64,000 nt of DNA from Curtobacterium sp. 9128 (GTDB taxonomy: Bacteria > Actinomycetota > Actinomycetes > Actinomycetales > Microbacteriaceae), in the NCBI RefSeq assembly GCF_900086645.1, contig NZ_LT576451.1, forward strand, positions 3,410,001-3,474,000, read 5' to 3'. Position 1 is the stretch's first letter. Every line of letters begins with the position of its first letter. The notes beneath the pieces were generated by a model. It was not told the DNA's origin, searched no databases, and saw nothing but the letters and a program-made list of their open reading frames with translations. A program made the position numbers and the translations under genes. Below, piece by piece: positions 8,548-33,769 of the stretch.

Positions 8548-9465
8548 TCAGCGCTTGCCGGCGGCGGCCACGATGCGCGCGACCGCGTCGGCGTCGTGGT
8601 GCACCGCGACCTGGTCGGCCCCGGCGACGGGCACGCGCACGGGCGTCGACCACAGCGACCCGTCCTCGGCGATGTCCACGACGAGCGCACCGGTGCCGAC
8701 GTACGCCGACTCCTCGCCGTACGCTCCGATGACGTCGGTGTCGTTCGCGACGCCCGGCGCGACGAGCACCGGCACGCCGCCCACGCTCCCCGCGAAGTGG
8801 TGGTGGTAGTGCCCGGCGAGCACGACGCGCACGTCGGTGCCGCGGATGACGTCCGCGAGCGCCTCGGGGTTCTGCAGCCGGAGTGCCTCGTGCAGCGCGG
8901 TCGGGGCCGGGAGCGGCGGGTGGTGCAGCACGACGACCGCTCCGTGGGGCGCACCGGACTCCTCGGCGAGCGCCGACCGGAGTCGGGTGAGTGACTCCTC
9001 GCTGAGCTCGCCGTACCCGGCACCGGGGACGCTCGTGTCCACCGTGACGATGCGACGGCCGGCCACGAGCGACTGCCCGAACACCGGGACCGTCGGCGGG
9101 TGGTACTCCATCGTGTGCATGAGCGGGCGGCCGCCCTCGCCGAGGACGTGCCCGTTGGCGAGGACCTGCCGGAACCCCTCGCGCTGGTCGTGGTTGCCGG
9201 GCACCGTGACGAGCGCGGCACCGTGACGCTCCGCCCAGCCTCCCGCGCGTTCGAGCAAGGCCGCGTAGGACTCGGGGGTCCCGTCCTCGGAGACGTCTCC
9301 GGAGACGACCACGACGCCGACGCCCTCGACGACGTCGAGCCGTTCGAGCAGGGCGTCGAGCGCGGCCGACGTGTCGACGGTGCCCTGGTGCAGCGATCCG
9401 TCCCCGGTGAGGTGGGTGTCGGACAGGTGCAGGACGCGGAGCGTGCCGGGAACGGGTGTCTGCAT
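8548..9465 (-). CDS. Calcineurin-like metallophosphoesterase (CpdA/class III PDE type)
   Basis: The 305-residue enzyme carries all five metallophosphoesterase blocks: DTHLTGD near residue 16, SGDVSEDG, GNHDQR, LHHPPL and AGHYHHHF. These coordinate a dimetal centre, and the AGHxHH block is typical of CpdA/Icc-like class III cyclic nucleotide phosphodiesterases. No signal peptide is present, so it acts in the cytoplasm. Hydrolysis of 2',3'- or 3',5'-cyclic nucleotides is the family expectation; the real substrate may differ. The gene ends 99 bases from the oxidoreductase start. Confidence 0.9.
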   Translation of the reverse strand: MQTPVPGTLRVLHLSDTHLTGDGSLHQGTVDTSAALDALLERLDVVEGVGVVVVSGDVSEDGTPESYAALLERAGGWAERHGAALVTVPGNHDQREGFRQVLANGHVLGEGGRPLMHTMEYHPPTVPVFGQSLVAGRRIVTVDTSVPGAGYGELSEESLTRLRSALAEESGAPHGAVVVLHHPPLPAPTALHEALRLQNPEALADVIRGTDVRVVLAGHYHHHFAGSVGGVPVLVAPGVANDTDVIGAYGEESAYVGTGALVVDIAEDGSLWSTPVRVPVAGADQVAVHHDADAVARIVAAAGKR

Positions 9466-9495: not shown

Positions 9496-9900
9496 TCACC
9501 CGTCGATTGTGGCGAGGATCGCCGGGCGCTCCTGGGTGTCACCCTGGTCGACCCACGAGAGCACCTGTGCGCTGATCAAGTCGGTCGACGGCGTGGTGTC
9601 GGTCGCGAACGAGAGCGCCGAGCTCCATCGCTCCCCTGCTCCCACGCGCTTCGACACCGTCTGTAGGTCGACGCGCTCGTGGTCGTCCGCGGACCCGTGC
9701 CATGCCGTCGCATCGACGACGACGTCGCGCGGCTCGGAACACGTCAGGTCGAACACGACGAGGCCGTGCACGTGGTCGGCTGTGGCGTCGAGCACCGTGC
9801 AGCCCGGTGCGCCCGGGTCCGCGTGCGCCGGGGCCGCGGTGAGCAGCGCACCCGCGAGCACGGTCAGTACGGCACCGGCGGTCAGGGTCTTCGTGAACAT
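9496..9900 (-). CDS. Small secreted protein of unknown function
   Basis: The 134-residue product has a clear Sec signal peptide (MFTKTLTAGAVLTVLAGALL, ending TAAPAHA, cleavage near residue 27). The mature domain of about 107 residues is probably beta-rich and has two cysteines (in GCTVLD and LTCSEP) that could form a disulfide. ATG at 9900 is preferred because AGGAGG sits upstream at good spacing; a longer start would bury the signal peptide. I recognise no family. It precedes the metallophosphoesterase gene by 30 bases and may be co-transcribed. Confidence 0.75.
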   Translation of the reverse strand: MFTKTLTAGAVLTVLAGALLTAAPAHADPGAPGCTVLDATADHVHGLVVFDLTCSEPRDVVVDATAWHGSADDHERVDLQTVSKRVGAGERWSSALSFATDTTPSTDLISAQVLSWVDQGDTQERPAILATIDG

Positions 9901-10004
9901 CGTCGTCCTCCTCGGATCAGTGATGTTCCACATGTTGCACGTCGGACCAGGAGACTGTCAACGCCTGCACGGGCCGCGTGACCGGAGGCCTCCGTTCAGA
10001 GCGC

Positions 10005-10044
10005 GCTCGTCAGTGCTTGCTCGTCAGTGCTTGCTCGTCAATGC
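10005..10044. repeat. 14-bp tandem repeat at the end of a rhamnosidase gene
   Basis: GCTCGTCAGTGCTT is repeated head to tail at 10005-10018 and 10019-10032, with a partial third copy to 10044. The repeat spans the stop codon of the rhamnosidase gene on the minus strand, and each full unit carries the same TGA, so the stop region is duplicated. This looks like slippage expansion. Confidence 0.85.
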
Positions 10045-12534
10045 GTGCGTCCCCACCCCGAGCACCTCGGTCCGACCATCAGGCAGCCGGACCTCGGCCT
10101 CCGTCCCCGGGGGCACCGTGACCGACAACGACACGGATCCACCGGTCACCGTCCACCGGACAGCAGCCCCGCCGTACGGCGTCCGCACCGAGCACGACGC
10201 CGACCCCACCGGCCCGCACACCGCCGGCGCGACGAGGAACCGCCGCCACCCCGGCTCGAGCGGCCGGATGCCGGCGACGTACCCGGTCAGCCAGTCGTCG
10301 ACCGTCCCGAGGAAGTAGTGCCCGTGCGACCGCGCCGCCAGGTCCCAGTGCTCGAACGTCGACGTCGCGCCTGCCTCCCGCCACGCACCCCACGACGGCA
10401 CGGTCGTCTGTCGCGCCACGGCGAGCGCCAGGGACGCGTACCCGGCGTCGGTGAGCACGGGCAGCAGCCACTTCGTGCCGATCGCCCCGGTGTCGAGGTG
10501 GTCGCCACGCGCGCGGACATCAGCGGCCAGTGCCGCCGCGACCGCCGGACGAGCGGACGAGGGCACCAGGTCGAACGCCAGCGCCAGCACCTGGTGCGAC
10601 TGCCGGAAGCCCTCGTCGCCCGACCCCCGGACGGCACCGTCGACCAAGAACCGGGCAACGAACGCGTCCCGCACACGCGCGGCAGCAGCACGCGCCCACG
10701 ACGCGTCCCGCCCGAGCACCTCGTCCACCCGTGCGACGGTGTCGAGGATCCGGACGAGGAACGCCGTCGCCGGCACCCGGGAGTCCTCCGGTGGATTGCC
10801 GCCACCGGGATCCGTGCCCGGGGCGACCCAGTCACCGAGGATCGTGTCCGCGATGCCGTCCGGCGACCGGTCGACCTCGAAACGCGCGTAGGACTCCATC
10901 GCCTCGACGTGGCGCTCGAGCACCGAGACGTCGCCGGTGTGCCGGTACACGTCCCACGGCACGGTCACCAGCGCCGAGTGCCACACCGGAGCCCGCTCGT
11001 CCACGCCGAACACCCCGGCGTTCGGGGCGATGAGCGCCGGCGGATGTCCGGGCGAGGTCGTCTCCGCGAGGTCGCCGACCCACTTCGTGAGCACGTCGGC
11101 GGCGTCGAGGTTCGTCAGGAACATGTCCGCGCCGACCGCGGCGTCGCCGGTCCAGCCGTTCTTCTCGTACTTGGGGGTGTCGGTCGGGTACCCGTGCAGG
11201 TTGTTCTCCATGGTCCGCAGGGTCGCGTCGTGGATCCACTGCAGCAGGCCGTCGTCGACGGAGAAGGTGCTCGTGACCTCGGCGTCGGTGCGGACCACCC
11301 GCGCGGTGACGTCCGCCACGGTCGGCCCGAGCGGCTCCGGCCATCCGGACAGCTGAACGTACCGGAACCCCTTGTAGGAGAACCGCGGCTCCCACGAGGC
11401 CGCGTCCTCGTCGAGCGTCACCTCGTCGGTCTGGAAGCCGTCGGCGAAGTAGTGCTTCTCGTCGTCGGCGTTCGGCAGGCCGTCCGGACGCAGCCGTTCG
11501 CCGTACCGGATCCGCACCGATGCGCCAGCGGCTCCGGCGGGCAGCCGCAGCTGCACCCAGCCGGCGACGACCCGGGGGAACGTGACGACCCACTCCCCCG
11601 GAGCCACCTGGGTGACGTCGGTCGGCTGGAGCTCCTCGACGACCCGGATCGGTTGCTCGGCTCGTGCCTCGAGCGCGCCAGCCGGACCCGTCACGACGAC
11701 GGCGGGCAACGCCGGTGCGGCGAGCGGTCGGCCGGGGCGTCGGCGCAGGTCGTGCACCTCACCTCCGTACAGGTCGTCCAGGAGGATCGTCCCGCGCCGG
11801 GCGGTCCAGTCCGGACCGGTGCGGATCACGTCCACCGCCCCGTCCTCGCGTTCCAGCCGCAGGACCGCGCGGACGCGCGGCTCCGCGTGCCACGGCGCGC
11901 GCTCCCACGCCCAGACGTTCGCGTTGGTCATCCCGTAGAACCCGCGGCCGAGTTCGAGGCCGAGCAGGTGTTCCGCCCCGTCGGCGAGCTCGGCGGTGAC
12001 GTCGTGCACGACGACCTGCACGCGGCGGTCCCAGTGCGTCGTGGTGGGCGACAGGACCTCGTCCGAGGCCAGGCGTCCGTCGATCCGGACGTCGACGTGC
12101 CCGCCGGCAGCCACCGCCAGGAGCGCACGGCGGACCGGGGCAGCCGCGTGCACCTGGGCCTCGAGCACCGGGGCGGCGAGTGCCCCGTCGTGGCATCGCT
12201 CGCGGGGCGCCGGGCCGGCGTCCTCGACGCCGGGCGCCGTGACCCACTCGGCACCACGCCACGCGTCGTCGTCGACGGGTGTGGGGGTGAACCGGCCGTG
12301 CTCGGTGGTGACCGTCGCGCCCGACTCGATCCGGGCCTCCCAATCGTGTTCCCGCCACGGTGCGAACCGGAGACCGGTCGGCGACGTGACCCACGGTTCG
12401 ACGCTCCGGATGCGGCCGGAGTCCCACACGACCGCGTCGCCGTCCCGGACCACGAGACGGAACGCCGTCTGCGGGCTCGTGACGGGCCAGGTGAACCGGA
12501 CACGTCCGTCGGCCTCGGTCGCCAGGGGCTCCAT
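10024..12534 (-). CDS. Alpha-L-rhamnosidase, GH78 (divergent subgroup)
   Basis: The 836-residue enzyme has GH78 architecture: an N-terminal fibronectin-like domain, a Bac_rhamnosid_N beta domain, an (alpha/alpha)6 barrel and a C-terminal beta domain. No signal peptide is present, so cleavage of terminal rhamnose is cytoplasmic. The catalytic region reads TDTPKYEKNGWTGD (D452, E457) where the other two GH78 enzymes here have TDCPQRDERLGWTGD, so it belongs to another subgroup and may take another substrate. ATG at 12534 follows GGAGGA. A TGAAACGATTCA operator lies 40 bases upstream, placing it in the rhamnose regulon. Confidence 0.92.
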   Translation of the reverse strand: MEPLATEADGRVRFTWPVTSPQTAFRLVVRDGDAVVWDSGRIRSVEPWVTSPTGLRFAPWREHDWEARIESGATVTTEHGRFTPTPVDDDAWRGAEWVTAPGVEDAGPAPRERCHDGALAAPVLEAQVHAAAPVRRALLAVAAGGHVDVRIDGRLASDEVLSPTTTHWDRRVQVVVHDVTAELADGAEHLLGLELGRGFYGMTNANVWAWERAPWHAEPRVRAVLRLEREDGAVDVIRTGPDWTARRGTILLDDLYGGEVHDLRRRPGRPLAAPALPAVVVTGPAGALEARAEQPIRVVEELQPTDVTQVAPGEWVVTFPRVVAGWVQLRLPAGAAGASVRIRYGERLRPDGLPNADDEKHYFADGFQTDEVTLDEDAASWEPRFSYKGFRYVQLSGWPEPLGPTVADVTARVVRTDAEVTSTFSVDDGLLQWIHDATLRTMENNLHGYPTDTPKYEKNGWTGDAAVGADMFLTNLDAADVLTKWVGDLAETTSPGHPPALIAPNAGVFGVDERAPVWHSALVTVPWDVYRHTGDVSVLERHVEAMESYARFEVDRSPDGIADTILGDWVAPGTDPGGGNPPEDSRVPATAFLVRILDTVARVDEVLGRDASWARAAAARVRDAFVARFLVDGAVRGSGDEGFRQSHQVLALAFDLVPSSARPAVAAALAADVRARGDHLDTGAIGTKWLLPVLTDAGYASLALAVARQTTVPSWGAWREAGATSTFEHWDLAARSHGHYFLGTVDDWLTGYVAGIRPLEPGWRRFLVAPAVCGPVGSASCSVRTPYGGAAVRWTVTGGSVSLSVTVPPGTEAEVRLPDGRTEVLGVGTHALTSKH

Positions 12535-12573
12535 CGCTCCTCCATCCGCCGGCGCCGCAGTGCGCTCAGCGCC

Positions 12574-12607
12574 TGAAACGATTCACGGAAGGCGACCGCG
12601 TTGTCAA
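12574..12607 (-). promoter_or_regulatory. Rhamnose-regulon operator and promoter of the first rhamnosidase
   Basis: On the minus strand a TTGACA -35 box (12602-12607) is followed, after 16 bases, by the near-palindrome TGAATCGTTTCA (12574-12585), the reverse complement of TGAAACGATTCA. The operator covers the expected -10 region. The same 12-mer precedes three other rhamnose genes here. A LacI-type repressor is expected because of the CG-centred palindrome. Confidence 0.78.
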
Positions 12608-12610
12608 GCG

Positions 12611-13456
12611 TCACGGACGGATCTGTTCGAGCCCGTACCGGCTGGGCGGTGTTCCGAAGGTGGCACGGAACACCCGCGAGAAGTAGAGCTGGTCCTCGAA
12701 CCCGACGGCACGGGCGACCTCGCCGACCCGGAGTCCGCTCGACCGCAGCATCTCGGCCGCCTCCCGCATCCGTACCGAGCGGACCCAGGCGCTCGCGGAT
12801 GTCCCGAGGTGCGCGGCGAACAGCCGACCCGCGGTGGACACGCTGCACCCGCCGGCCGCCGCGATCTCGGCGACGGGGAGCGGCCGGTCGAGGTTCCGAC
12901 GGACGTGGGCGGTCATCAGCTCGAGCGCTGCCGGCACCGCCGCGTCCCCGGCTGCGTCGAGCCCGTCCTCGGCGACGAAGAGCGCGCCGAGTGCACGTGA
13001 CACCCCCTCGTCGAAGGGACCGTCACCGAACCGCTCGACCGTGTACCCGCCGAGCGAGGCGATCCGTCGTGCCGTGGACGTGGTCGCCGCGGACTGCCGC
13101 GGTCGACCGGGGTCGCCGCGGCGATCGCCGGCGTCGTAGAGCGGGTCACCCGGTTGGTGCGCGACCGCCGGCAGCACCGGGGTCGACCGGTCGTGCCGTG
13201 GGACGACGTGCACGGTCCCCAGGCGGAACGGCGCTCGGTCGTCGGCGAGGTACTCGACGTCGTGGCCCCACGGCAGCCGCAGGACGGATCCCGACGTCAG
13301 CGTGAACCGGTCGCCGCACGAGCGCACCGTGCCCGTCCCGGCGAGCACCCAGAGGAAGCAGACGCTCAGGACGCGCTCGTGCCGGATCCGCTCACCGGCG
13401 CGGAAGCGGTACCAGTTGGCGGCGACCACCGCGGGGCCCTCGGTCGTTGTGTCCAT
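12611..13456 (-). CDS. AraC-family transcriptional regulator
   Basis: About 281 residues comprise an N-terminal cupin-like sensor domain and a C-terminal double helix-turn-helix (VAEIAAAGGCSVSTAGRLFAAHLG and VGEVARAVGFEDQLYFSRVFRATFGTPPSRYG), the AraC/XylS DNA-binding module. The gene is divergent from the ferredoxin/reductase/P450 operon and lies 76 bases upstream of the rhamnosidase gene start, in the same direction. It could control either. The start is uncertain: ATG 13456 and ATG 13498 are both open. The effector is unknown; many relatives respond to sugars such as rhamnose. Confidence 0.88.
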   Translation of the reverse strand: MDTTTEGPAVVAANWYRFRAGERIRHERVLSVCFLWVLAGTGTVRSCGDRFTLTSGSVLRLPWGHDVEYLADDRAPFRLGTVHVVPRHDRSTPVLPAVAHQPGDPLYDAGDRRGDPGRPRQSAATTSTARRIASLGGYTVERFGDGPFDEGVSRALGALFVAEDGLDAAGDAAVPAALELMTAHVRRNLDRPLPVAEIAAAGGCSVSTAGRLFAAHLGTSASAWVRSVRMREAAEMLRSSGLRVGEVARAVGFEDQLYFSRVFRATFGTPPSRYGLEQIRP

Positions 13457-13591
13457 ACGCCGAGCGTATAGCGAGCCATGCCTGACCGAGATGTCCATGT
13501 TCTGGGGATCGCGCCCATGCCGCGCACCACCCGGCGAGCCCTAGCGTCGGGTGCACCGGTCGACGCGGACCGGAGGACGACAGGAGACACG

Positions 13592-13783
13592 ATGCGCATC
13601 ATCGCCGACACCAGTGCATGCGTCGGAGCGGGGCAGTGCGCCCTCGTCGCCGGCGAGCTCTTCGACCAGGACGACGACGGCATCGTCGAGCTCCTCGTCG
13701 ACGTGCCGGACGCCGCGGACGAGCCGGCAGCACGTCGGGCAGCTGCGCTCTGTCCGGCGCGTGCCATCACGATCGAGGAGTGA
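13592..13783 (+). CDS. [3Fe-4S]-type ferredoxin, P450 redox partner
   Basis: The 63-residue ferredoxin has three cluster cysteines, C10 and C16 (CVGAGQC) and C54 in CP, with alanine at the fourth position. This is the pattern of actinobacterial P450-associated [3Fe-4S] ferredoxins. ATG at 13592 follows GGAGACAC; longer in-frame starts contain no ferredoxin sequence. Its stop overlaps the reductase start (GTGA), and the P450 gene follows, so electrons should pass NAD(P)H to reductase to ferredoxin to P450 in the cytoplasm. Confidence 0.93.
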   Translation: MRIIADTSACVGAGQCALVAGELFDQDDDGIVELLVDVPDAADEPAARRAAALCPARAITIEE

Positions 13784-14919
13784 GCGTGCACGTCGTCGTG
13801 GTCGGTGCCGGTGTCGCCGGGGTGACCTGCGCCGAGGCACTCCGTGCGGCGGGACACGACGGCCCGATCACCCTCGTCGGCGCCGAACCGCACGCCCCGT
13901 ACGCCCGGCCGCCGCTCTCGAAGCAGGTCCTCGACGGCTCGTGGCACCCCTCGCGCTCCGTGCTCCGGACGGTCGCGGAACTCGACGGTCTCGACGTCAC
14001 GCTCCTCGCCGGCGCCACCGCGACCGCACTCGACCCGGAGGCGCACGTCGTGACCGTCGACGGAGCCCGACTGCACTACGACGCCCTCGTCATCGCGACC
14101 GGTGTCGAGCCGGTCCGGCCCGAGCTGCCGGGGATCGAGCACGCGTTCGTCCTGCGGACCCTCGACGACGCCGTCGCGCTGCGGTCCGCATGGGCGCGCG
14201 CCGAGCGTGTCGTCGTCATGGGGACGGGCGTGCTCGGGTCCGAGATCACGTCAGCGGCCCGACACCACGGCCACGAGGTCGCCCTCATCGGTCGGAGCGG
14301 CCGGCTGTCCTTCGGCACCGTCGGCACGCTGCTGTCCGAACGGCTCACCGAGCTGCACCGCGACAACGGGGTCGACCTGCGCCCCGATGCCGGCGCGCTG
14401 GGGGTCACGATCGACGGCCTGGTCCTCGGCGACGGTTCCGTCCTCCGAGCGGATCTCGTCGTGGCGGCCACCGGCGGACACCCCAGGACATCATGGCTCG
14501 CCGCATCGGGGCTCACCGTGCGGGACGGGGTGTGCTGCGACGACCACGGCAGGGCCGCACCCGACGTGTACGCGATCGGCGACGTCGCACGCTGGACGGA
14601 CCCCGTGACCGGCCGATCGACGCGCATCGAGCACCAGACGAACGCCATCGAGCAGGCACTGTCGGTCGCCGCGACGATCACCGGGGCCGAACCGCTCGCC
14701 GCGCCGATCCCGTTCTTCTGGTCGGAGGTGCACGGCATCCGCATCCAGGCCGTCGGCACGTTCGACCCCGCACGCCCGCTGGACCCGTGGCAGGAGGACA
14801 GCGACGTGCTCGTCCAACGCGACGGGGCGGCCACGACCGGCGTCGTCGGCTGGGCCGCACCCCGTGCCTTCCGCCGAGCCCGGGCCGAACTCGCCCGAAC
14901 CGTCCCCGCCCACGCCTGA
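13780..14919 (+). CDS. FAD-dependent ferredoxin reductase
   Basis: The 379-residue flavoprotein has two Rossmann motifs, VVVVGAGVAGVTCAEAL at the N-terminus for FAD and VVVMGTGVLGSEITSA near residue 145 for NAD(P)H, plus the second FAD contact VYAIGDVARW. This is the putidaredoxin reductase/rubredoxin reductase family. GTG at 13780 overlaps the ferredoxin stop; an upstream ATG in frame would run through the ferredoxin gene. It lies 15 bases before the P450 gene, completing a class I three-component system. Confidence 0.93.
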   Translation: MSVHVVVVGAGVAGVTCAEALRAAGHDGPITLVGAEPHAPYARPPLSKQVLDGSWHPSRSVLRTVAELDGLDVTLLAGATATALDPEAHVVTVDGARLHYDALVIATGVEPVRPELPGIEHAFVLRTLDDAVALRSAWARAERVVVMGTGVLGSEITSAARHHGHEVALIGRSGRLSFGTVGTLLSERLTELHRDNGVDLRPDAGALGVTIDGLVLGDGSVLRADLVVAATGGHPRTSWLAASGLTVRDGVCCDDHGRAAPDVYAIGDVARWTDPVTGRSTRIEHQTNAIEQALSVAATITGAEPLAAPIPFFWSEVHGIRIQAVGTFDPARPLDPWQEDSDVLVQRDGAATTGVVGWAAPRAFRRARAELARTVPAHA

Positions 14920-14934
14920 CTCCTGGAGACCTCC

Positions 14935-16200
14935 ATGTCCGGATGCCCCTTCCACGCCGTCACCCTCCCCGGCGACAGCACACCGCTCACCCCGTCGCCC
15001 GACTTCGCCGAGTGGCGCGACCAGGCACCAGCCGTGCCGCTCGCGTACGACGACGGGCACGTCGGGCTCATCGTCACCCGCTACGACGCCGCCCGGGCGA
15101 TCCTGGCCGACCCGCGGTTCAGTCAGGTGCCGCACCGGATGCCGCGCGGACCGGCACGCCCGCACGACACAGTCGACGGGGCCGCCGCCGACGCCGCCGG
15201 GGCCGCCGTCCCGGCGCCACGGCCCCAGGATCCGCTCGACGACGCCGCTCGCCGGTCGATCGACGCCGCGAACCTGCTCGCACTCGACGGCGCCGTGCAC
15301 CAGCGCATGCGCCGCGGCGTCACCGCGCGCTTCTCGGTCAAGCAGGTGCGCCAGCGCGGCCCCGAGGTGCGCGATCGCGTGGCGAGGCACCTGCACCGGC
15401 TGCTCGCCCACGACGGGCCCGTCGACCTCTTCTCGGAGTACGCGCAGCCGATCGCCGCCGAGACCCACTGCAGCGTGATCGGCGTGCACGAGGACCGCGT
15501 GCCCGAGTTCGTCGAGCACTTCGTCCGGGGTTCGAGCACGCAGGCCAGGTTCGACTTCATCCGCTCCGTGGTCGACGCCCGCGCGGCGGACCCGGGCGAG
15601 GACGTCATCACCGACCTGCTCGCCTCGGACTTCTCGCGCGTCGAGGTCGAGGGGCTCGTCTTCCAGCTGATGAGCGCCGGGCACGACTCCGTGGCGTACC
15701 TCATCGCCACCGCGACGGTGGCACTGCTGACGAACCCGGAACTGCTCGCGCGGCTCCGAGCCGACCCGGAGCGGGTGGGTCCGGCGATCGAGGAGTTCAT
15801 GCGGACCGGTGCGATGTTCCTCACGCTGTTCCCGCGCACCGCGACCGAGGACGTCGAGATCGAGGGGGTGACCGTCGCCGCCGGGCAGACCGTCTCCGTG
15901 TCACCGGTCGGGGCGAACCGGGATCCACGGCACTTCGAGGACCCCGAGCGCTTCGACGTCGACCGGGACGCTTTCGGGCACCTGGGGTTCGGGTACGGGC
16001 CACACGGCTGCATCGGCCAGCAACTCGCGCGCGCCGAGATCCGGGAGGCGATCACGCAGCTGATCACCGGCGCCCCCGACTTGCGACTCGTCGACGCCGA
16101 ACAACTCCGACCGATGCCGTTCGCCAACCCGGTCGCGACGTACGAGGCCGGCGCAGTGCTCGTGAAAACCGACCGCGCTTCGATTTCTCCATCATTGTGA
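14935..16200 (+). CDS. Cytochrome P450 monooxygenase
   Basis: The 421-residue soluble bacterial P450 shows the heme-binding FGYGPHGCIGQQ with proximal C359, the K-helix ExxR (E287, R290) and an I-helix AGHDS (residues 248-252), where serine replaces the usual threonine of the proton-relay pair. ATG at 14935 follows CTGGAG. Redox partners are encoded just upstream. It lies between two rhamnose-regulon promoters, so oxidation of an aglycone or terpenoid released from a rhamnoside is a reasonable hypothesis. The true substrate is unknown, and assignment to a CYP family needs alignment. Confidence 0.93.
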   Translation: MSGCPFHAVTLPGDSTPLTPSPDFAEWRDQAPAVPLAYDDGHVGLIVTRYDAARAILADPRFSQVPHRMPRGPARPHDTVDGAAADAAGAAVPAPRPQDPLDDAARRSIDAANLLALDGAVHQRMRRGVTARFSVKQVRQRGPEVRDRVARHLHRLLAHDGPVDLFSEYAQPIAAETHCSVIGVHEDRVPEFVEHFVRGSSTQARFDFIRSVVDARAADPGEDVITDLLASDFSRVEVEGLVFQLMSAGHDSVAYLIATATVALLTNPELLARLRADPERVGPAIEEFMRTGAMFLTLFPRTATEDVEIEGVTVAAGQTVSVSPVGANRDPRHFEDPERFDVDRDAFGHLGFGYGPHGCIGQQLARAEIREAITQLITGAPDLRLVDAEQLRPMPFANPVATYEAGAVLVKTDRASISPSL

Positions 16201-16231
16201 GATAACCCTGGCGCTCGCGGCGTCGGGTGCG

Positions 16232-16264
16232 TATATTCATCGCAACCACCGATGAAACGATTCA
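16232..16264 (+). promoter_or_regulatory. Promoter and rhamnose-regulon operator before the first rhamnoside importer
   Basis: A TATATT -10 box (16232-16237) is followed 15 bases later by the operator TGAAACGATTCA (16253-16264), which would sit just downstream of the transcription start and block it. The permease promoter at 25303-25334 has almost the same arrangement. The binding-protein start codon is 48 bases further on. Confidence 0.77.
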
Positions 16265-16311
16265 GTTCCCGGCGGTTCCCGATCCTCAACGACGACGACC
16301 GGAGGTACTCG

Positions 16312-17727
16312 ATGACGAGCCGACCACCACACCCGCCCACCAGGCCCGCGGCACGCGACGTGTCGAGACGGGCGTTCCTCGCAGCCATCGCGGCCGGCAC
16401 CGCGACGATCGGCCTCGCCGGCTGCACCGTGATCTCCGGCGGCGCCGTCGCGGACGACCAGCAGGGCCTCAGGCTCAGCAAGGACCCGGCACCGGGCCGC
16501 GCGCACGTCGTCGAGATGTACAACATCTGGGGCGGCACGCTCGGCAACGCCTGGGTCGAGCTCGCCGACCTCTACGAGCAGTCGCAGTCGCACACCGGCG
16601 TCCGGGTCACCTACGCGCCGCTGTCCGGCAACACGCAGATCCGTCTGCAGACCGCCATCGCCGCGGGCACCCCGCCGGACCTGGCGTTCTGCACCCCAGA
16701 GGAGTACCCGCAATTCGCGGGCTACGGCGTCGTCGAGCCACTCGGTGCCCGGATCGCGGCCGCCGGCCTCGGTGCGGCCAACTTCGCACCGGCGGTGTGG
16801 AAGCAGATGACGGCCACGGACGACATCTACGCGATGCCGGTGCTCGTCGACGTGAACTTCCCGATGTTCTGGAACAAGAAGGTCTTCGCGTCAGCCGGCC
16901 TCGACCCCGAGACCCCGCCGAAGACCATCGACGAGCTCGAGGCGTTCTCGGACAAGATCCTGCAGAAGCGCGGCAACCAGGTCACCCGGATCGGGACCGT
17001 GCCGTGGGACTACTACGGCTTCAGCAACTCGATGTTCACGTTCGGCTTCGCCTTCGGCGGGAAGTTCATGAGCGACGACAACATGGAGGCCACCCCCGAC
17101 GACCCGAACATCGTCCAGGCGCTCCAGTGGATGGTCGACTACGCGAAGAAGGTCGGCGGCGCGAGCCACCTGTCCGTCACCAGCCCGTCGCAGACCCTGC
17201 CGACGATCGCGAGCGGCAACGTCGGCATGGCGCCGATGACGACGACGGACGCGCAGAACGTCTACCGGAGCGGGGACAAGGCGAAGGTCGAACTCGGCGC
17301 GACGCTCTTCCCCTACGCGGAGGGGCTCGGCTCTCCTGGGAGCGCGACCTGGCTCGGCGGCTACGACCTCTTCATCCCGAAGGACTCCAAGGAGCACGAC
17401 TCCGCGTGGGACTTCCTGCAGTTCGCGACCGTCTCGGACGCCGGCACGCAGTCGAACTTCAAGTACGGCACCCTGCTCCCCGGCTGGTCCGACTCCCCCG
17501 TCCTGGCGGAGTTCCAGAAGGACCCGAACATCGCCGTCTACCGCGAGGGCCTCCTCACCGCGAAGAACATCCGCCCGACGATCCCCGTCGCGAGCACCTA
17601 CGCGACCGCGCTCGACATCCAGGTGAGCTCGGCCATCTACGGCCAGATCACCCCGGAGCGCGCCCTGGCCAAGGTCAAGGCCTCGGTCAACGCCGCGTTC
17701 GACGAATTCCGGAAGGAGAACTCGTGA
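16312..17727 (+). CDS. ABC sugar importer, solute-binding lipoprotein (Tat-type signal)
   Basis: The 471-residue CUT1 solute-binding protein has a twin-arginine lipoprotein signal (SRRAFLAAIAAGTATIG, then lipobox LAGC). It should be exported folded and anchored to the outer face of the membrane. ATG at 16312 follows GGAGGTACTCG; an upstream ATG lacks a ribosome site and overlaps the operator. It starts the operon binding protein - two permeases - GH78, and so probably captures a rhamnose-containing oligosaccharide or glycoside. Confidence 0.92.
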   Translation: MTSRPPHPPTRPAARDVSRRAFLAAIAAGTATIGLAGCTVISGGAVADDQQGLRLSKDPAPGRAHVVEMYNIWGGTLGNAWVELADLYEQSQSHTGVRVTYAPLSGNTQIRLQTAIAAGTPPDLAFCTPEEYPQFAGYGVVEPLGARIAAAGLGAANFAPAVWKQMTATDDIYAMPVLVDVNFPMFWNKKVFASAGLDPETPPKTIDELEAFSDKILQKRGNQVTRIGTVPWDYYGFSNSMFTFGFAFGGKFMSDDNMEATPDDPNIVQALQWMVDYAKKVGGASHLSVTSPSQTLPTIASGNVGMAPMTTTDAQNVYRSGDKAKVELGATLFPYAEGLGSPGSATWLGGYDLFIPKDSKEHDSAWDFLQFATVSDAGTQSNFKYGTLLPGWSDSPVLAEFQKDPNIAVYREGLLTAKNIRPTIPVASTYATALDIQVSSAIYGQITPERALAKVKASVNAAFDEFRKENS

Positions 17728-18695
17728 GCGTCACACGGAGCATCACGACACGGGGTCCGAAGCCCCGTGGAACATCATGGCTCACTCACTGGATCCCCCG
17801 GACGAAGCGGCAGCGCGCCACCTTCGGGTGGGGCCTGTTCTTCACCGCACCGGCGATCATCGGCCTCGTCGTCTTCACCGGCGGTCCGATCATCACGAGC
17901 GCCGTCAACAGCTTCACGAACGCGAACCTGCTCGGCGGCACGAAGCAGTGGATCGGGTGGCAGAACTACACGCAGCTCTTCGCCGACGACCAGTGGTGGC
18001 TGTCCCTCGGGAACACCCTGTTCCTCACGGTCATCTCGGTGCCCCTCGGCATCGCGGTCGCCCTCGGCCTCGCGCTGCTGCTCAACCTCCGGGTGAAGGG
18101 CCTCGGCATCTACCGGGTGATCTTCTTCATCCCGTCCATCGTCCCGATCGTCGCCAGCGCGGTCATCTGGGCGTACGTCCTCAACCCGCAGTACGGCGTG
18201 ATCAACAACGTCCTGAGCATCTTCGGCATCCAGGGGCCCGGCTGGCTCTCCGACCCCGCGTGGTCGAAGCCGGCGCTCATCCTGTTCGGCCTGTGGGGCG
18301 TCGGGAACCTCATGGTGATCCTGCTCGCCGGGCTGCAGGGCGTCCCGCAGGACCTCCTCGAACAGGCGTCCCTCGACGGTGCCGGCGCCTGGCAGAAGTT
18401 CCGGAACGTGACCGTGCCGTTCATCAGCCCGCAGCTGCTCTTCGCGACGATCACCGGCCTGATCGCCGGGTTCCAGTACTTCACCCAGGCGTTCGTCATG
18501 ACCGGCGGCTACGGCGACCCGGCGGGCTCCACGCTCGTGTCCGGCGTGTACCTGTACCAGTCGGCGTTCTACCACTACCAACTCGGCTACTCGAGCGCGG
18601 TCGGATGGGTGCTCTTCGTGATCATCGCCATCGTCTCGATCCTGGCGTACCGCATCATGGGCCGCCGCGTGTACTACGGAGGCGAAGCACGATGA
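17724..18695 (+). CDS. ABC sugar importer permease (MalF type)
   Basis: The 323-residue inner-membrane permease has six helices and the EAA loop near its C-terminal half (LEQASLDGAGAWQKFRNVTVPFI), which contacts the ATPase. GTG at 17724 overlaps the binding-protein stop (GTGA) and is preceded by GGAAGGAG; the longer upstream frame is out of register with any gene. It pairs with the next permease. No ATPase gene accompanies the operon. Confidence 0.93.
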   Translation: MSVTRSITTRGPKPRGTSWLTHWIPRTKRQRATFGWGLFFTAPAIIGLVVFTGGPIITSAVNSFTNANLLGGTKQWIGWQNYTQLFADDQWWLSLGNTLFLTVISVPLGIAVALGLALLLNLRVKGLGIYRVIFFIPSIVPIVASAVIWAYVLNPQYGVINNVLSIFGIQGPGWLSDPAWSKPALILFGLWGVGNLMVILLAGLQGVPQDLLEQASLDGAGAWQKFRNVTVPFISPQLLFATITGLIAGFQYFTQAFVMTGGYGDPAGSTLVSGVYLYQSAFYHYQLGYSSAVGWVLFVIIAIVSILAYRIMGRRVYYGGEAR

Positions 18696-19621
18696 CCGCG
18701 ATCGAGAACCCCACGGCGGCCGCTGCCGTCGCCGGCGAACCGCGCGGGTCGGTCAACCCGACCCGCCCCGTCCCGAAGCACCGCAAGCTCACGTGGCCCC
18801 GCATCGCCGAGGCCATCGCGAAGCACGCCGTCCTCATCGTCCTCAGCGTCGTGTTCCTGATGCCGCTGATCTGGATGGTCACCGGGTCGTTCAAGACCCA
18901 GGCGGACATCGGCGCGTTCCCGGTGAAGTGGTTCCCGGACACCATCACGACGGGCAACTACACGTACGGCCTGCAGGCGTTCCCGCTGCTGCAGTACTTC
19001 TGGAACACCCTCGTGATCTGCGTGCCGTCGATGATCGGCGCCGCGCTGTCGAGCGCGATGGTCGGCTACGGCGTCTCCCGCATCCGGTGGCCGTGGCGGA
19101 ACGGGATCTTCACGATCCTCATCGCGACGATGATGGTGCCGTTCTACGTGACGATGGTCCCGCTGTTCGTGGCCTACCGCGACGTCGGCTGGACGGGCAC
19201 GTACCTGCCGCTCATCGTCCCGACGTTCTTCGGCATCCCGTTCTTCATCTTCCTGATGCGGCAGTTCTTCCTCGGCATCCCGGACGCCCTCACCGATGCC
19301 GCAAGGATCGACGGCGCCGGGGAGCTCCGCATCTTCGTCCAGGTCATCCTGCCGCTCTGCAAGCCGGCACTCGCCGCGGTGATGCTCTTCCAGTTCCTCG
19401 CCTCGTGGAGCGACCTGCTCGGGCCGCTGCTGTACCTCACGAAGTCGAGCCAGTACACGCTGTCGCTCGGCCTGACGTTCTTCCAGGGAGCGCAGGGCGA
19501 CACCGCCACCGGCCCGCTGATGGCCGTCTCGACCATCATCCTCATCCCCGTCGTGGTCCTGTTCTTCTTCGCTCAGAAGACGTTCATCCAGGGCATCACG
19601 ATGTCCGGGATCAAGGACTGA
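18692..19621 (+). CDS. ABC sugar importer permease (MalG type)
   Basis: The 309-residue second permease of the importer has six membrane helices and a typical MalG-type EAA loop (LTDAARIDGAGELRIFVQVILPL). The start ATG overlaps the preceding permease stop (ATGA). A disordered, positively charged N-terminal tail of about 45 residues precedes the first helix. It is followed after 16 bases by a GH78 rhamnosidase, linking import with intracellular hydrolysis. Confidence 0.93.
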   Translation: MTAIENPTAAAAVAGEPRGSVNPTRPVPKHRKLTWPRIAEAIAKHAVLIVLSVVFLMPLIWMVTGSFKTQADIGAFPVKWFPDTITTGNYTYGLQAFPLLQYFWNTLVICVPSMIGAALSSAMVGYGVSRIRWPWRNGIFTILIATMMVPFYVTMVPLFVAYRDVGWTGTYLPLIVPTFFGIPFFIFLMRQFFLGIPDALTDAARIDGAGELRIFVQVILPLCKPALAAVMLFQFLASWSDLLGPLLYLTKSSQYTLSLGLTFFQGAQGDTATGPLMAVSTIILIPVVVLFFFAQKTFIQGITMSGIKD

Positions 19622-19637
19622 CCGAAAGGACCCCCGC

Positions 19638-22304
19638 ATGACCGACACGACGACAGCACCAGCCCGCCGCGTGGCTGGTTCCGAGACTGACGGGAGGCTC
19701 GGCTCGGCTCCCACGGGACCGCTCGCCCCGACCGGGCTCCGCGTCGAACACCTCCGCGAACCCCTCGGGATCGGCACGGCCGAGCCGCGGCTCTCGTGGT
19801 ACCTCCCCGAGGCCGGACCCGGTTGGGAACCGGGGCTCGCCGAGGTCGAACTCGTCGAACGCACGGCCGGCACCGACGCCGGCGCCGTCGCGGAGGTGGA
19901 CGCCTCCGGGGTCCTCGTCCCGTGGCCGTTCGCCCCGCTCGCGTCCCGCGAACGCGCCGTGTGGCGGGTCCGCACCACGGCGGTGGACGGCTCCGTGACG
20001 GACTGGAGCGAGCCCCTGGAGGTCGAGGCGGGCCTCCTGTCCGACACCGACTGGACCGCCTCGTTCGTCGCCGCGCCGTGGCGGGAGAACACCCGCGTCG
20101 ACCAGGCGCCGCCGATCCTGCGGCGCGAGGTGACGCTGCGCGGCGACGTCGTCCGCGCCCGGCTCGCGGTGGCGAGCCTCGGCCTCCACGAGGTCACCGT
20201 CGACGGCGTCCGCGTCGGCGACGCGGAGCTCGCACCTGGATGGACCTCCTTCGGACACCGGGTCCGCTACCTGGTGCACGACGCGACCGAGCACCTGGCC
20301 GGCGGTCCGCGGACGGTCGCACTCGGCGCTCGTCTCGCCGACGGCTGGTACCGCGGCCGGATCACCTGGGACGACCGTGTCCGCAACGTGTACGGCGACC
20401 GGTTGGCGCTCATCGCCCAGCTCGAGGTCGAGTACGCCGACGGCTCCACGGAGACCTTCGGCACCGATGACTCCTGGCGCGCCGCGCGCGGCGGGATCCT
20501 GCTCTCCGGACTCTACGACGGAGAGAAGTGGGACGGCAGGGTCGAACCCGACGGTTGGCAGACCGTCGGGTTCGACGACGCCGCATGGGACGCGGTCGAG
20601 GTGCTCGACGCTCCCGCCGCGGCACTCGTCCCCTTCGACGGCCCCGTGGTGCGCGTGGTCGAGGAGATCGAACCGGTGTGGTCGCGCCGCTGGGACGCCG
20701 GGGCGATCCAGCTCGACTTCGGGCAGAACCTCCCCGGTCGGTTGAAGATCCGCAACCACCCCGTCGGGCCGTTCGGCGTCACGCTGCGGCACGCCGAGGT
20801 GATGCAGGACGACGAACTCGCGACCCGCCCACTGCGCACCGCGAAGGCCACCGACGTGTTCTACTCGGGGCCGGGAGACGACGGCGAGGGGTCGTGGGAG
20901 CCGCGCTTCACGGTGCACGGGTTCCGCTACGCCGAGGTCGAGGGCTGGCCCGTGTCCTCCTTCGAGCCCGGGGACGTCGTCGCGCAGGTGGTGCACACCG
21001 ACATGCGGCGCACCGGGTGGTTCCGCTGCTCGGACCCGCGGCTCGAGCAGCTGCACGAGAACGTCGTCTGGTCGATGCGCGGGAACTTCGTCGACGTCCC
21101 GACCGACTGCCCGCAGCGTGACGAGCGGCTCGGGTGGACCGGGGACCTGCAGGTGTTCACGCCGACGGCCGCGTTCCTCTACGACTGCGCCGGGGTGCTC
21201 CGGTCGTGGCTCAGGGACCTGGCGCTCGAGCAGCGCGAGGACGGCGGCGTGCCGTTCTTCGTGCCGACACTCCCCGACTCCGACCCGGCCGGGCACCACG
21301 CGGCGGTCTGGGGCGACGCGGCGACGCTCACCCCGTGGGGACTGTTCCAGGCGTTCGGCGACCGCGGGCTCCTCGAGGACCAGTGGGCATCGGCGAAGGC
21401 CTGGGTCGACGGCGTGCTCGCTTCCGGGGACGAGGACCTCGTCCGGGTCGAAGGCTTCGAGTTCGGCGACTGGCTCGACCCGCTCGCGCCGCCGGAGGAC
21501 GCGGCAGCAGCCAAGGCCGACAAGTACTGCCTGGCGACGGCGTACTCGTACCGGTCGACGTCGGTGCTGGCGGCGTGGGCGGCCGAGCTCGGGAACACCT
21601 CCGATGCCGCGTCGTACGCGGAGACCGCGGCGCGGATCAAGGCGTCGTGGCAGGCGCGGTTCCTGACGCCCTCCGGCACCGTCATCGACGACTCGCAGGC
21701 GTCGTCGGCGATCGCGATCGTGTTCGGGCTCGTCGACGCGGACGGCCCGGTCGGGGCCCGGCTGTCGGAGCTCGTGCGGTCGAACGGGCACCGCATCGGC
21801 ACCGGGTTCGCCGGGACGCCGGTGGTCTGCGACGCGCTGCTCCTCGCCGGGCACCTCGACGACGCGTACGCGATGCTCCTGAAGGACGAGTGCCCGTCGT
21901 GGCTCTACCCGCTCACGCAGGGTGCGACGACGATCTGGGAGCGCTGGGACTCGCTGCTGCCGGACGGACGCGTGAACTCGGGCGGGATGACGTCGTTCAA
22001 CCACTATGCACTCGGGTCCGTCGCGGACTTCATGCACCGGGTCGTCGCCGGCATCGCCCCCGCTGCCCCCGGGTACGCGGCGATCCGCTTCGCGCCGAGG
22101 CCCGGCGGCGGTCTGACGAGCGCCGGGGCGACGCTCGACACCCCACGGGGCCAGGCCGCGATCGACTGGTCGGTGTCCGACGGCACGCTGTCGGTCACCG
22201 TCACGGTGCCGGTCGGTGCGACGGCCGTGCTCGACCTCCCCGGGGCGGAGCCCGTCGAGCTCTCGCACGGCACGTGGGAGTCGGCGGTGCCGTTCGACGC
22301 GTGA
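19638..22304 (+). CDS. Alpha-L-rhamnosidase, GH78
   Basis: The 888-residue GH78 enzyme shows the usual order of N-terminal beta domains, (alpha/alpha)6 catalytic barrel and C-terminal beta domain. The canonical catalytic stretch DVPTDCPQRDERLGWTGD contains D490 and E496. No signal peptide is present. It is the last gene of the first importer operon (16 bases after the permease), so it should remove alpha-L-rhamnose from whatever that system brings in, feeding the RhaI-RhaB pathway. An inverted repeat at 22364-22414 ends the transcript. Confidence 0.94.
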   Translation: MTDTTTAPARRVAGSETDGRLGSAPTGPLAPTGLRVEHLREPLGIGTAEPRLSWYLPEAGPGWEPGLAEVELVERTAGTDAGAVAEVDASGVLVPWPFAPLASRERAVWRVRTTAVDGSVTDWSEPLEVEAGLLSDTDWTASFVAAPWRENTRVDQAPPILRREVTLRGDVVRARLAVASLGLHEVTVDGVRVGDAELAPGWTSFGHRVRYLVHDATEHLAGGPRTVALGARLADGWYRGRITWDDRVRNVYGDRLALIAQLEVEYADGSTETFGTDDSWRAARGGILLSGLYDGEKWDGRVEPDGWQTVGFDDAAWDAVEVLDAPAAALVPFDGPVVRVVEEIEPVWSRRWDAGAIQLDFGQNLPGRLKIRNHPVGPFGVTLRHAEVMQDDELATRPLRTAKATDVFYSGPGDDGEGSWEPRFTVHGFRYAEVEGWPVSSFEPGDVVAQVVHTDMRRTGWFRCSDPRLEQLHENVVWSMRGNFVDVPTDCPQRDERLGWTGDLQVFTPTAAFLYDCAGVLRSWLRDLALEQREDGGVPFFVPTLPDSDPAGHHAAVWGDAATLTPWGLFQAFGDRGLLEDQWASAKAWVDGVLASGDEDLVRVEGFEFGDWLDPLAPPEDAAAAKADKYCLATAYSYRSTSVLAAWAAELGNTSDAASYAETAARIKASWQARFLTPSGTVIDDSQASSAIAIVFGLVDADGPVGARLSELVRSNGHRIGTGFAGTPVVCDALLLAGHLDDAYAMLLKDECPSWLYPLTQGATTIWERWDSLLPDGRVNSGGMTSFNHYALGSVADFMHRVVAGIAPAAPGYAAIRFAPRPGGGLTSAGATLDTPRGQAAIDWSVSDGTLSVTVTVPVGATAVLDLPGAEPVELSHGTWESAVPFDA

Positions 22305-22340
22305 CCCGGCGCGGCGGGCTGGTCCATCGGGCACGTCCCA

Positions 22341-22414
22341 CGAGAGCGCCCGCGAGAGCGCCCGCGAAAGCGACAGTTCACCGCGAGATCCGCGCGGGAA
22401 ACTGTCGCTTTCGC
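22341..22414. terminator. Bidirectional hairpin preceded by 12-bp direct repeats
   Basis: A perfect 15-bp inverted repeat (22364-22378 with 22400-22414, left arm GCGAAAGCGACAGTT) encloses a second 5-bp stem (22381-22385 with 22393-22397), separated by a 2/2 internal loop. It lies between the convergent GH78 gene and the helix-hairpin-helix gene. Two 12-bp direct copies of CGAGAGCGCCCG (22341-22352 and 22353-22364) lead into it. A terminator role is likely. Confidence 0.75.
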
Positions 22415-22446
22415 AGTGCGGTCCGCGTGATGAGCCGCGGACCGCC

Positions 22447-22878
22447 TCAGTCGGGCAGGACCGCGTCGGGGACGTCCCGCAGGAAGATCTCGATCGTCTT
22501 CGGGCCGACCCCGTGCAGTGCTCCGAGCCGGTCACGGAGTTCCGCGCGTGACCCTGCGGTCTTCACGAGGTGGGACACCGACCCCTCGTCGGCGTCGAGC
22601 GTGTGCATCGTCTCGTGCAGCGCGTCGGTCATCTGGTAGTCGAACCGTCCGTAGCCGCCCTCGTCGAGGACCTTGCGGAGCTGCTCCCGTCCGGCCCCGG
22701 CGAACCTCCCGGGGCTCGTGAACCCGTGGTCGATCAGCACGCGGTACGTCTCGGCCGCCTGCTCCTGCCGGATCGGCCTGCCGAACAGCATGCTCGCGAG
22801 GAACCACCGGTACAGCTGCTGGGGTTTGCCGTCCGACAGGTCGATGCCGAGGTCGGAGGCGTGCGTCACGTCGGCCAT
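22447..22878 (-). CDS. Helix-hairpin-helix protein, endonuclease III/DNA glycosylase-like
   Basis: The product of about 143 residues is mostly helical and ends with a helix-hairpin-helix segment (LGALHGVGPKTIEIFLRDVP), the DNA-binding element of the HhH-GPD family. It is much shorter than a full endonuclease III (about 210 residues), and no FeS-cluster cysteines are present, so catalysis is doubtful. ATG 22878 or 22887 could start it. It is monocistronic. A DNA-binding or base-recognition role is inferred from the motif only. Confidence 0.72.
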   Translation of the reverse strand: MADVTHASDLGIDLSDGKPQQLYRWFLASMLFGRPIRQEQAAETYRVLIDHGFTSPGRFAGAGREQLRKVLDEGGYGRFDYQMTDALHETMHTLDADEGSVSHLVKTAGSRAELRDRLGALHGVGPKTIEIFLRDVPDAVLPD

Positions 22879-22995
22879 GCCGGGCACCGTACCCGCCCCG
22901 GCACCACACCCGGTCCAGGTGCGGGGGTTACCCCCACCCCGGATCCGGAGGACCGCCGGATCGTCCCGCCGACCGCGCGGAACGACGATGGATCC

Positions 22996-23484
22996 ATGAA
23001 CACGTCACGCTCCGAACGATCCGCCGTCACCTCCGCCTTCGCCGTCGTCGGCATGGGTCTCGTCGTCGCCACCCTGACCGGCTGCAGCATGATCGAGCAG
23101 TCGCTCCCGCAGCAGCACCGCCACTACGACACCTACCGTGATGCCCCGTCGTCGGCGAACTCGGAGGACATGGCCTGGTTCATGCCGAAGTGGGTGCCGG
23201 AGGACGCGAAGGACATCGACGTGCGCCTGGACACGAGCAACCCCGGGTACGTCATCGCCTTCGACTCCGCGACCGGAGTCGACACGGCGGCGTGTGAGCC
23301 CGTCGACGGCACCCACGGCGGCCCGGCGATGACGGCCGACTTCCTGCCGAAGTCGCTGCCCACGAGCGACCTGATCACGTGCGGCGACGGACGGATCACG
23401 GCCGAGATCGACGGCCGTTGGTACGGCTGGACGTCGAAGGAGCCGGTGTCGTCCGACGCGAACGACACCCTGCGCAGTTCCTGA
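22996..23484 (+). CDS. Small lipoprotein of unknown function
   Basis: The 162-residue product has an N-terminal hydrophobic segment and lipobox (AVVGMGLVVATLTGC, cysteine near residue 32), so it should be lipid-anchored outside the membrane. The mature part contains two further cysteines (in TAACEP and LITCGDG) and tryptophan-rich patches (DMAWFMPKWVP). I do not recognise a family. It is convergent with the mutarotase gene, the stops being 6 bases apart, and not obviously part of the rhamnose pathway. Confidence 0.7.
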   Translation: MNTSRSERSAVTSAFAVVGMGLVVATLTGCSMIEQSLPQQHRHYDTYRDAPSSANSEDMAWFMPKWVPEDAKDIDVRLDTSNPGYVIAFDSATGVDTAACEPVDGTHGGPAMTADFLPKSLPTSDLITCGDGRITAEIDGRWYGWTSKEPVSSDANDTLRSS

Positions 23485-23490
23485 CCGGAC

Positions 23491-33727: not shown

Positions 33728-33769
33728 TTGCGCGGTCCGGCGCCGCGGGCTAGCCTATGAAACGATTCA
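33728..33769 (+). promoter_or_regulatory. Promoter and rhamnose-regulon operator of the rhaI operon
   Basis: TTGCGC (33728-33733) and TAGCCT (33751-33756) are separated by 17 bases and form a plausible sigma-A-type promoter. The operator TGAAACGATTCA (33758-33769) begins one base later, over the transcription start. Repressor binding would directly block initiation. The rhaI start codon is 24 bases downstream. Confidence 0.82.

Follow-up and report, generated by a model that had tools for sequence, protein, structure and literature searches.

The window, by which we mean the whole 64,000-nucleotide stretch of DNA analysed here from Curtobacterium, a plant-associated type of bacterium, carries a three-gene cassette encoding a ferredoxin (Fdx), a ferredoxin reductase (FdR) and a cytochrome P450, all transcribed in the same direction and separated by gaps of 2 bp (Fdx-FdR) and 15 bp (FdR-P450). 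A preliminary description of this DNA had proposed a tight ferredoxin-reductase-P450 operon lying opposite an AraC regulator, and both the gene content and the divergent arrangement agree with it. The features of the locus are collected in Table 1.

Table 1. Features of the cassette and of the surrounding module (positions are those of the window; a dot marks features listed without strand).
Feature	Position	Strand	Basis or remark
Present/absent module, approximate extent	9496..23490	.	between phosphodiesterase (8548-9465) and RhaM; empty sites
GH78 alpha-L-rhamnosidase a (GH78a)	10024..12534	-	Pfam rhamnosidase domains; no signal peptide seen
LacI-type rhamnose operator (predicted), upstream of GH78a	12574..12585	.	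TGAAACGATTCA
AraC-family regulator	12611..13498 (start probably 13456)	-	HTH_18; divergent from cassette
AraC-type operator (predicted)	13483..13522	+	TGACCGAGATGTCCATGTTCTG-N10-CCATG; CCAT repeats about 21 bp apart
Ferredoxin, 3-Cys [3Fe-4S] type (predicted), 63 aa	13592..13783	+	ORF, Cys pattern, Pfam Fer4_15/Fer4_13
Ferredoxin reductase, 377 aa	13786..14919	+	GTG start; Pyr_redox_2 E=3.7e-57
Cytochrome P450, 421 aa	14935..16200	+	PF00067 E=3.2e-25
LacI-type rhamnose operator (predicted), between P450 and SBP gene	16253..16264	.	TGAAACGATTCA
ABC sugar-binding lipoprotein SBP1	16312..17727	+	SBP_bac_1
ABC permease 1	17724..18695	+	ORF, conserved along with SBP1
ABC permease 2	18692..19621	+	BPD_transp_1
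GH78 alpha-L-rhamnosidase b (GH78b)	19638..22304	+	Pfam; no signal peptide seen

A P450, a small ferredoxin and an FAD reductase in one contiguous operon are the gene content of a bacterial class I P450 system, and we assign the cassette to that class, with electron transfer predicted from the gene content. The cysteines of Fdx follow the pattern C10-x5-C16...C54-P, and a [3Fe-4S] cluster is expected from this three-cysteine pattern because alanine stands where the fourth cysteine would be; the best PDB match of Fdx is the ferredoxin-like C-terminal part of a CYP51 chain. FdR belongs to the family of the biphenyl/toluene dioxygenase ferredoxin reductases and putidaredoxin reductase (PDB matches: biphenyl dioxygenase ferredoxin reductase, TodA and putidaredoxin reductase).

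The P450 carries the heme motif FGYGPHGCIG, the EFMR signature and the I-helix sequence AGHDS, which correspond to the superfamily features FxxGxxxCxG (with C359), ExxR (E287-R290) and the I-helix acid-alcohol pair (D251-S252); C359, E287, R290 and D251 are invariant across 28 relatives. Its top phmmer match was StvP2 (7e-56), and an AlphaFold2 model (pLDDT 88) had a fold nearest to CYP105/CYP107, with a Z of 43 to CYP105A1. Compared with the PDB members of CYP105 and CYP107, the protein gave a Z of about 43 at 30-36% identity, the family threshold being >40% to a named member. Its F-G region is approximately 15 residues shorter than that of StvP2. In the copies from Curtobacterium and Brachybacterium, the B-C region is occupied by an Ala/Pro-rich, low-confidence insertion (residues 76-95), which is absent or short in relatives outside these genera. 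This was the only P450 found in the source genome (G000) with this query at an E cut-off of 0.001.

The cassette is embedded in a rhamnoside-utilisation locus, in which GH78 rhamnosidases, a sugar ABC importer and rhamnose catabolic genes stand together. GH78b scored 705 bits against the solved rhamnosidase 6gsz. Past GH78b follow RhaM, an MFS transporter, a LacI regulator, a second importer, a third GH78, RhaI, RhaD, RhaB and an LldD-like gene; the names from RhaM to the LldD-like gene were assigned by reading the sequences, with only some run against a library. Import of intact rhamnoside followed by hydrolysis in the cytosol is likely, since a hydrophobic leader is missing from GH78a, GH78b and GH78c and SBP1 carries a lipoprotein-like one.

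Two kinds of predicted operator were found. The LacI-type palindrome TGAAACGATTCA occurs at positions 12574, 16253, 25303 and 33758, and a search with it gave 9 matches against 0.95 expected. The sites at 12574, 16253 and 25303 have counterparts in four other Curtobacterium loci, this conservation check spanning the fetched stretches, beyond which the site at 33758 falls. In Actinomycetales, the genes for rhamnose and for rhamno-oligosaccharides have been described as jointly controlled by a LacI-type regulator, RhaR (PMC3870299), and for this reason the TGAAACGATTCA sites very likely mark a RhaR rhamnose regulon. The cassette had been placed between two rhamnose-regulon promoters; the palindromes at 12574 and 16253 do flank it, but neither lies inside its own promoter region (13457-13591), and the palindrome is absent upstream of Fdx in the five Curtobacterium loci checked, which leaves the cassette promoter outside the predicted RhaR regulon.

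Upstream of Fdx, an AraC-type site of the form TGAYCGRAWNRTCCATRTTYTG-N10-CCATG is instead kept in about 15 loci. The window's copy scored 40 bits against ≤13 in five shuffles with a matrix that includes this very site; with a matrix built from other genera only (without Curtobacterium) it was still the top site, at 24.9 against 17.3 for the next. It is also the sole match with 0 mismatches in the genome, the next having 3. Among 398 Microbacteriaceae genomes, AraC proteins of at least 50% identity occurred only in those that bear the P450, with weaker relatives (38-43%) in genomes G377, G293 and G105. By this pattern, the cassette has a private, conserved AraC operator, newly described here, and lacks the LacI operator seen at the promoters of the rhamnosidase and the importer. 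In Microbacterium murale a second operator of the AraC type (L041:14330-14369) precedes a GH92 gene that is divergent from a second AraC copy, and the AraC regulon of this species therefore seems to include a glycosidase.

Within Curtobacterium, the P450 (≥68% identity), SBP1 and GH78a were each detected in the same six of 66 genomes (G000, G011, G024, G038, G047 and G049), all of which have Fdx, FdR and AraC in the same order. Strains that bear the cassette include Curtobacterium sp. Leaf261, PhB115 and ZW137. RhaI was present in 39 of the 66 genomes, including all six. Four genomes with RhaI and without the P450 (G009, G018, G029 and G063) preserve an empty site, where the phosphodiesterase is followed directly by RhaM and the intervening module is missing as one block. 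From these comparisons, GH78a, AraC, Fdx, FdR, P450, the ABC importer and GH78b appear as a single block that is gained or lost beside the core rhamnose locus. Genomes of one genus being related, the six-for-six co-presence stands for one or a few events, and the wider survey below serves as the independent test. Brachybacterium copies have the order AraC-Fdx-FdR-P450-SBP1-perm1-perm2, in one case with GH78b, and their P450s branch inside those of Curtobacterium, which points to transfer of the module between the two lineages. No close relative was found in any plasmid record searched. GH78a of strain PS02333 (L031:4990-7589) is split over two frames, possibly a broken gene or a sequencing error.

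Relatives of the P450 (45-65% identity) were sought blind to their neighbours in 398 Microbacteriaceae, 396 Micrococcales and 394 Actinomycetes genomes. Of 21 P450 loci, with Curtobacterium counted once, 11 had a GH78 gene no more than 10 kb away, whereas the GH78 gene counts of the genomes predict 0.32 such loci (p about 1e-15); some of the 21 are close sisters and not independent (G640/G565 and the G720 copies), the excess being far beyond that effect. Gene order and importer type vary among the loci, and in two genomes (G151 and G146) the only GH78 detected is the one near the P450. A 22nd locus (L113, G912:C1:1283600-1303599) comes from a 1.3-Mb genome (47% GC in the stretch read), in which the P450 is adjoined by relatives of GH78, perm4, perm3, SBP2 and LldD (tblastn), the importer being of the rhamnoside type. 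At seven loci (L063, L066, L073, L075, L076, L077 and L113) neither Fdx nor FdR was found next to the P450.

In a tree of the P450s, a single large clade of weak support contains the rhamnosidase-linked members together with others that lack a GH78; G377, G139/G424 and the G987 group lie outside this clade. The preliminary description had looked to neighbourhood conservation among relatives for support, and had held that cassettes in relatives without rhamnose genes would count against the link. The Curtobacterium block and the 11 of 21 loci lend the link strong support, but several relatives stand without GH78 nearby (L037, L063, L066, L072, L075, L077 and L112). A tie in all relatives is thus contradicted by a good part of the loci, mainly on basal branches and in one Micrococcales subclade, and the rhamnose tie accordingly characterises much of the large clade but does not extend to the P450 family as a whole.

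These same relatives would fit a cassette that is a mere passenger, a general xenobiotic or biosynthetic P450 travelling with rhamnoside genes. We consider this improbable in view of the statistical excess of GH78 neighbours in differing gene orders, together with the conserved co-presence and the empty site in Curtobacterium. On the genomic evidence, the cassette is not a chance neighbour of the rhamnoside genes, and we are highly confident that the P450 has its function in the use of rhamnosides. The claim of a dedicated class I P450 tied to such use draws strong support from the all-or-none module, the proximity to GH78 and the recurrence in distant genomes. Since distant actinobacteria show this pairing as well, it is very probable that the oxidase acts on some portion of rhamnose-bearing compounds that lies beyond the reach of rhamnosidases alone.

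For the substrate, we tentatively favour the aglycone of an imported, cytosolically hydrolysed rhamnoside, a reading to which we give somewhat less than even weight. The cassette would then supply the oxidative step in an accessory module for rhamnoside use: an intact alpha-L-rhamnoside would be imported, the GH78 enzymes would free rhamnose in the cytosol for the RhaI/RhaB/RhaD route, the freed non-sugar part would induce AraC, and an NAD(P)H-FdR-Fdx-P450 chain would hydroxylate that part, making it less toxic or opening it to further breakdown. This reading is favoured because a basal relative in G377 (46% identity) with the same operator type heads an operon P450-NHL-ADH-ALDH-CaiB-enoyl-CoA hydratase, plus a thiolase-like gene, with AraC and FdR relatives 20 kb away under the same operator type. 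Judged by its gene content, this operon is a CoA-type catabolic route for a carbon skeleton, not a sugar. At 46% identity the G377 enzyme may differ in substrate, and a single basal relative is too little to settle what the window's enzyme acts on.

The preliminary description had suggested that the P450 oxidises or activates an aglycone, which is plausible, but the window's module yielded neither a gene for aglycone catabolism nor one for a beta-glucosidase, and GH78 is not near all relatives. The neighbours common to related loci are sugar importers and exo-glycosidases, and among the 25 commonest of 64 Pfam families in 46 other neighbours, none typically serves the breakdown of aromatics or terpenoids.

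An AraC relative in G293 (43%) is divergent from a gene of the linalool dehydratase/isomerase (Ldi) Pfam family, which is also present in the G377 cluster; the two proteins (L068:5792-7339 and L136:7739-9295) share 44% identity and both lie near this AraC type. We set Ldi aside as direct evidence of linalool use and keep it as a lead only, since the G377 protein scored just 26 bits to the solved Ldi and the family is absent from 24 of 25 cassette genomes. In G706 a P450 relative (L054/L072, C3:64681-65853) has an in-frame TGA in a cassette without GH78 nearby and is possibly decaying.

The main rival, which we regard as rather unlikely, is that the P450 oxidatively O-demethylates a methylated sugar (e.g. 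methyl-rhamnose) released or carried by the rhamnoside, yielding rhamnose and formaldehyde. The window's module holds only sugar genes and this reaction would need no further enzyme; related cassettes accompany importers and the exo-glycosidases GH78, GH92, GH127 and GH89, of which the last three, being sugar-directed, weigh against the aglycone; the operator before the M. murale GH92 gene fits as well, as does the retention of the P450 beside GH78 and an importer in the streamlined 1.3-Mb genome. The same three-component architecture also occurs in a glycan locus for marine 6-O-methyl-galactose, as far as PMC10033563 recounts it. Against demethylation stand the G377 relative in its CoA-type operon, the absence of any formaldehyde-handling gene seen in the window's module and, as weak evidence, the nearest solved P450s, which act on large hydrophobic molecules. 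Were it correct, and we put this no higher than a minority chance, actinobacteria on land and in water would strip O-methyl or similar caps from rhamnose-bearing glycosides through a dedicated AraC-switched P450, an independent counterpart of the marine porphyran demethylase.

Still less likely, in our estimate, is that the P450 acts ahead of hydrolysis and oxidises the whole rhamnoside, either activating it or cleaving it oxidatively, with an adjoining NHL-propeller protein processing the product in some relatives. One NHL beta-propeller family, which has no curated function, recurs beside the P450 in seven loci (L064:10647-11657, L065, L067, L068, L112, L114 and L115), and at L137:1973-2902, where there is no P450, it lies beside GH78, L-rhamnonate dehydratase and an AraC relative. 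The window's module showed no NHL gene, however, and GH78 alone would not need such activation.

A P450 family lacking an assigned substrate is now tied to a class of nutrient. The module is small, its regulator and predicted operator are identified, and a single genus offers strains that have it, strains that lack it and a clean empty site, which makes the substrate directly testable. The favoured aglycone reading, if true, would describe how bacteria disarm or use the non-sugar portion of plant rhamnosides; demethylation, if true, would be the second natural example of sugar use that relies on demethylation by a P450.

The preliminary description knew of no rhamnoside locus with a dedicated class I P450, and in the open-access literature searched (most subscription journals fall outside it) we likewise found nothing on point for a bacterial P450 paired with a rhamnosidase. 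The recurring pairing with its own regulator is new relative to that literature, but the surprise is moderate, since a P450 in a glycan locus has one precedent in porphyran use. Control of an ABC importer, rhamnosidases and rhamnose catabolic genes by a LacI-type regulator resembles the RhaR regulon (PMC3870299), whose survey has no P450 or monooxygenase in its main text, whereas the cassette here has its own AraC operator. CYP105 and CYP107 are the nearest folds and sequences to the window's P450, yet identity to their solved members is below 40%. The operon of the G377 relative resembles the terpene class I systems, P450cam and linalool 8-monooxygenase, in which a catabolic P450 works with a ferredoxin and an FAD reductase (PMC4097962); the window's cluster differs from these in encoding rhamnosidases and the import of sugars, and in having no genes that degrade rings or chains. 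Closest in architecture are the marine porphyran loci with their 6-O-methyl-D-galactose P450 demethylase (Reisky 2018, as described in PMC10033563), in which, going by that account, a P450 with its own ferredoxin and ferredoxin reductase likewise sits inside a carbohydrate-utilisation locus. The likeness noted is one of gene architecture: those loci belong to Flavobacteria and combine porphyran genes with a Zn-ADH, whereas the cassette described here belongs to actinobacteria and is joined to GH78 rhamnosidases, an ABC importer and an AraC switch.
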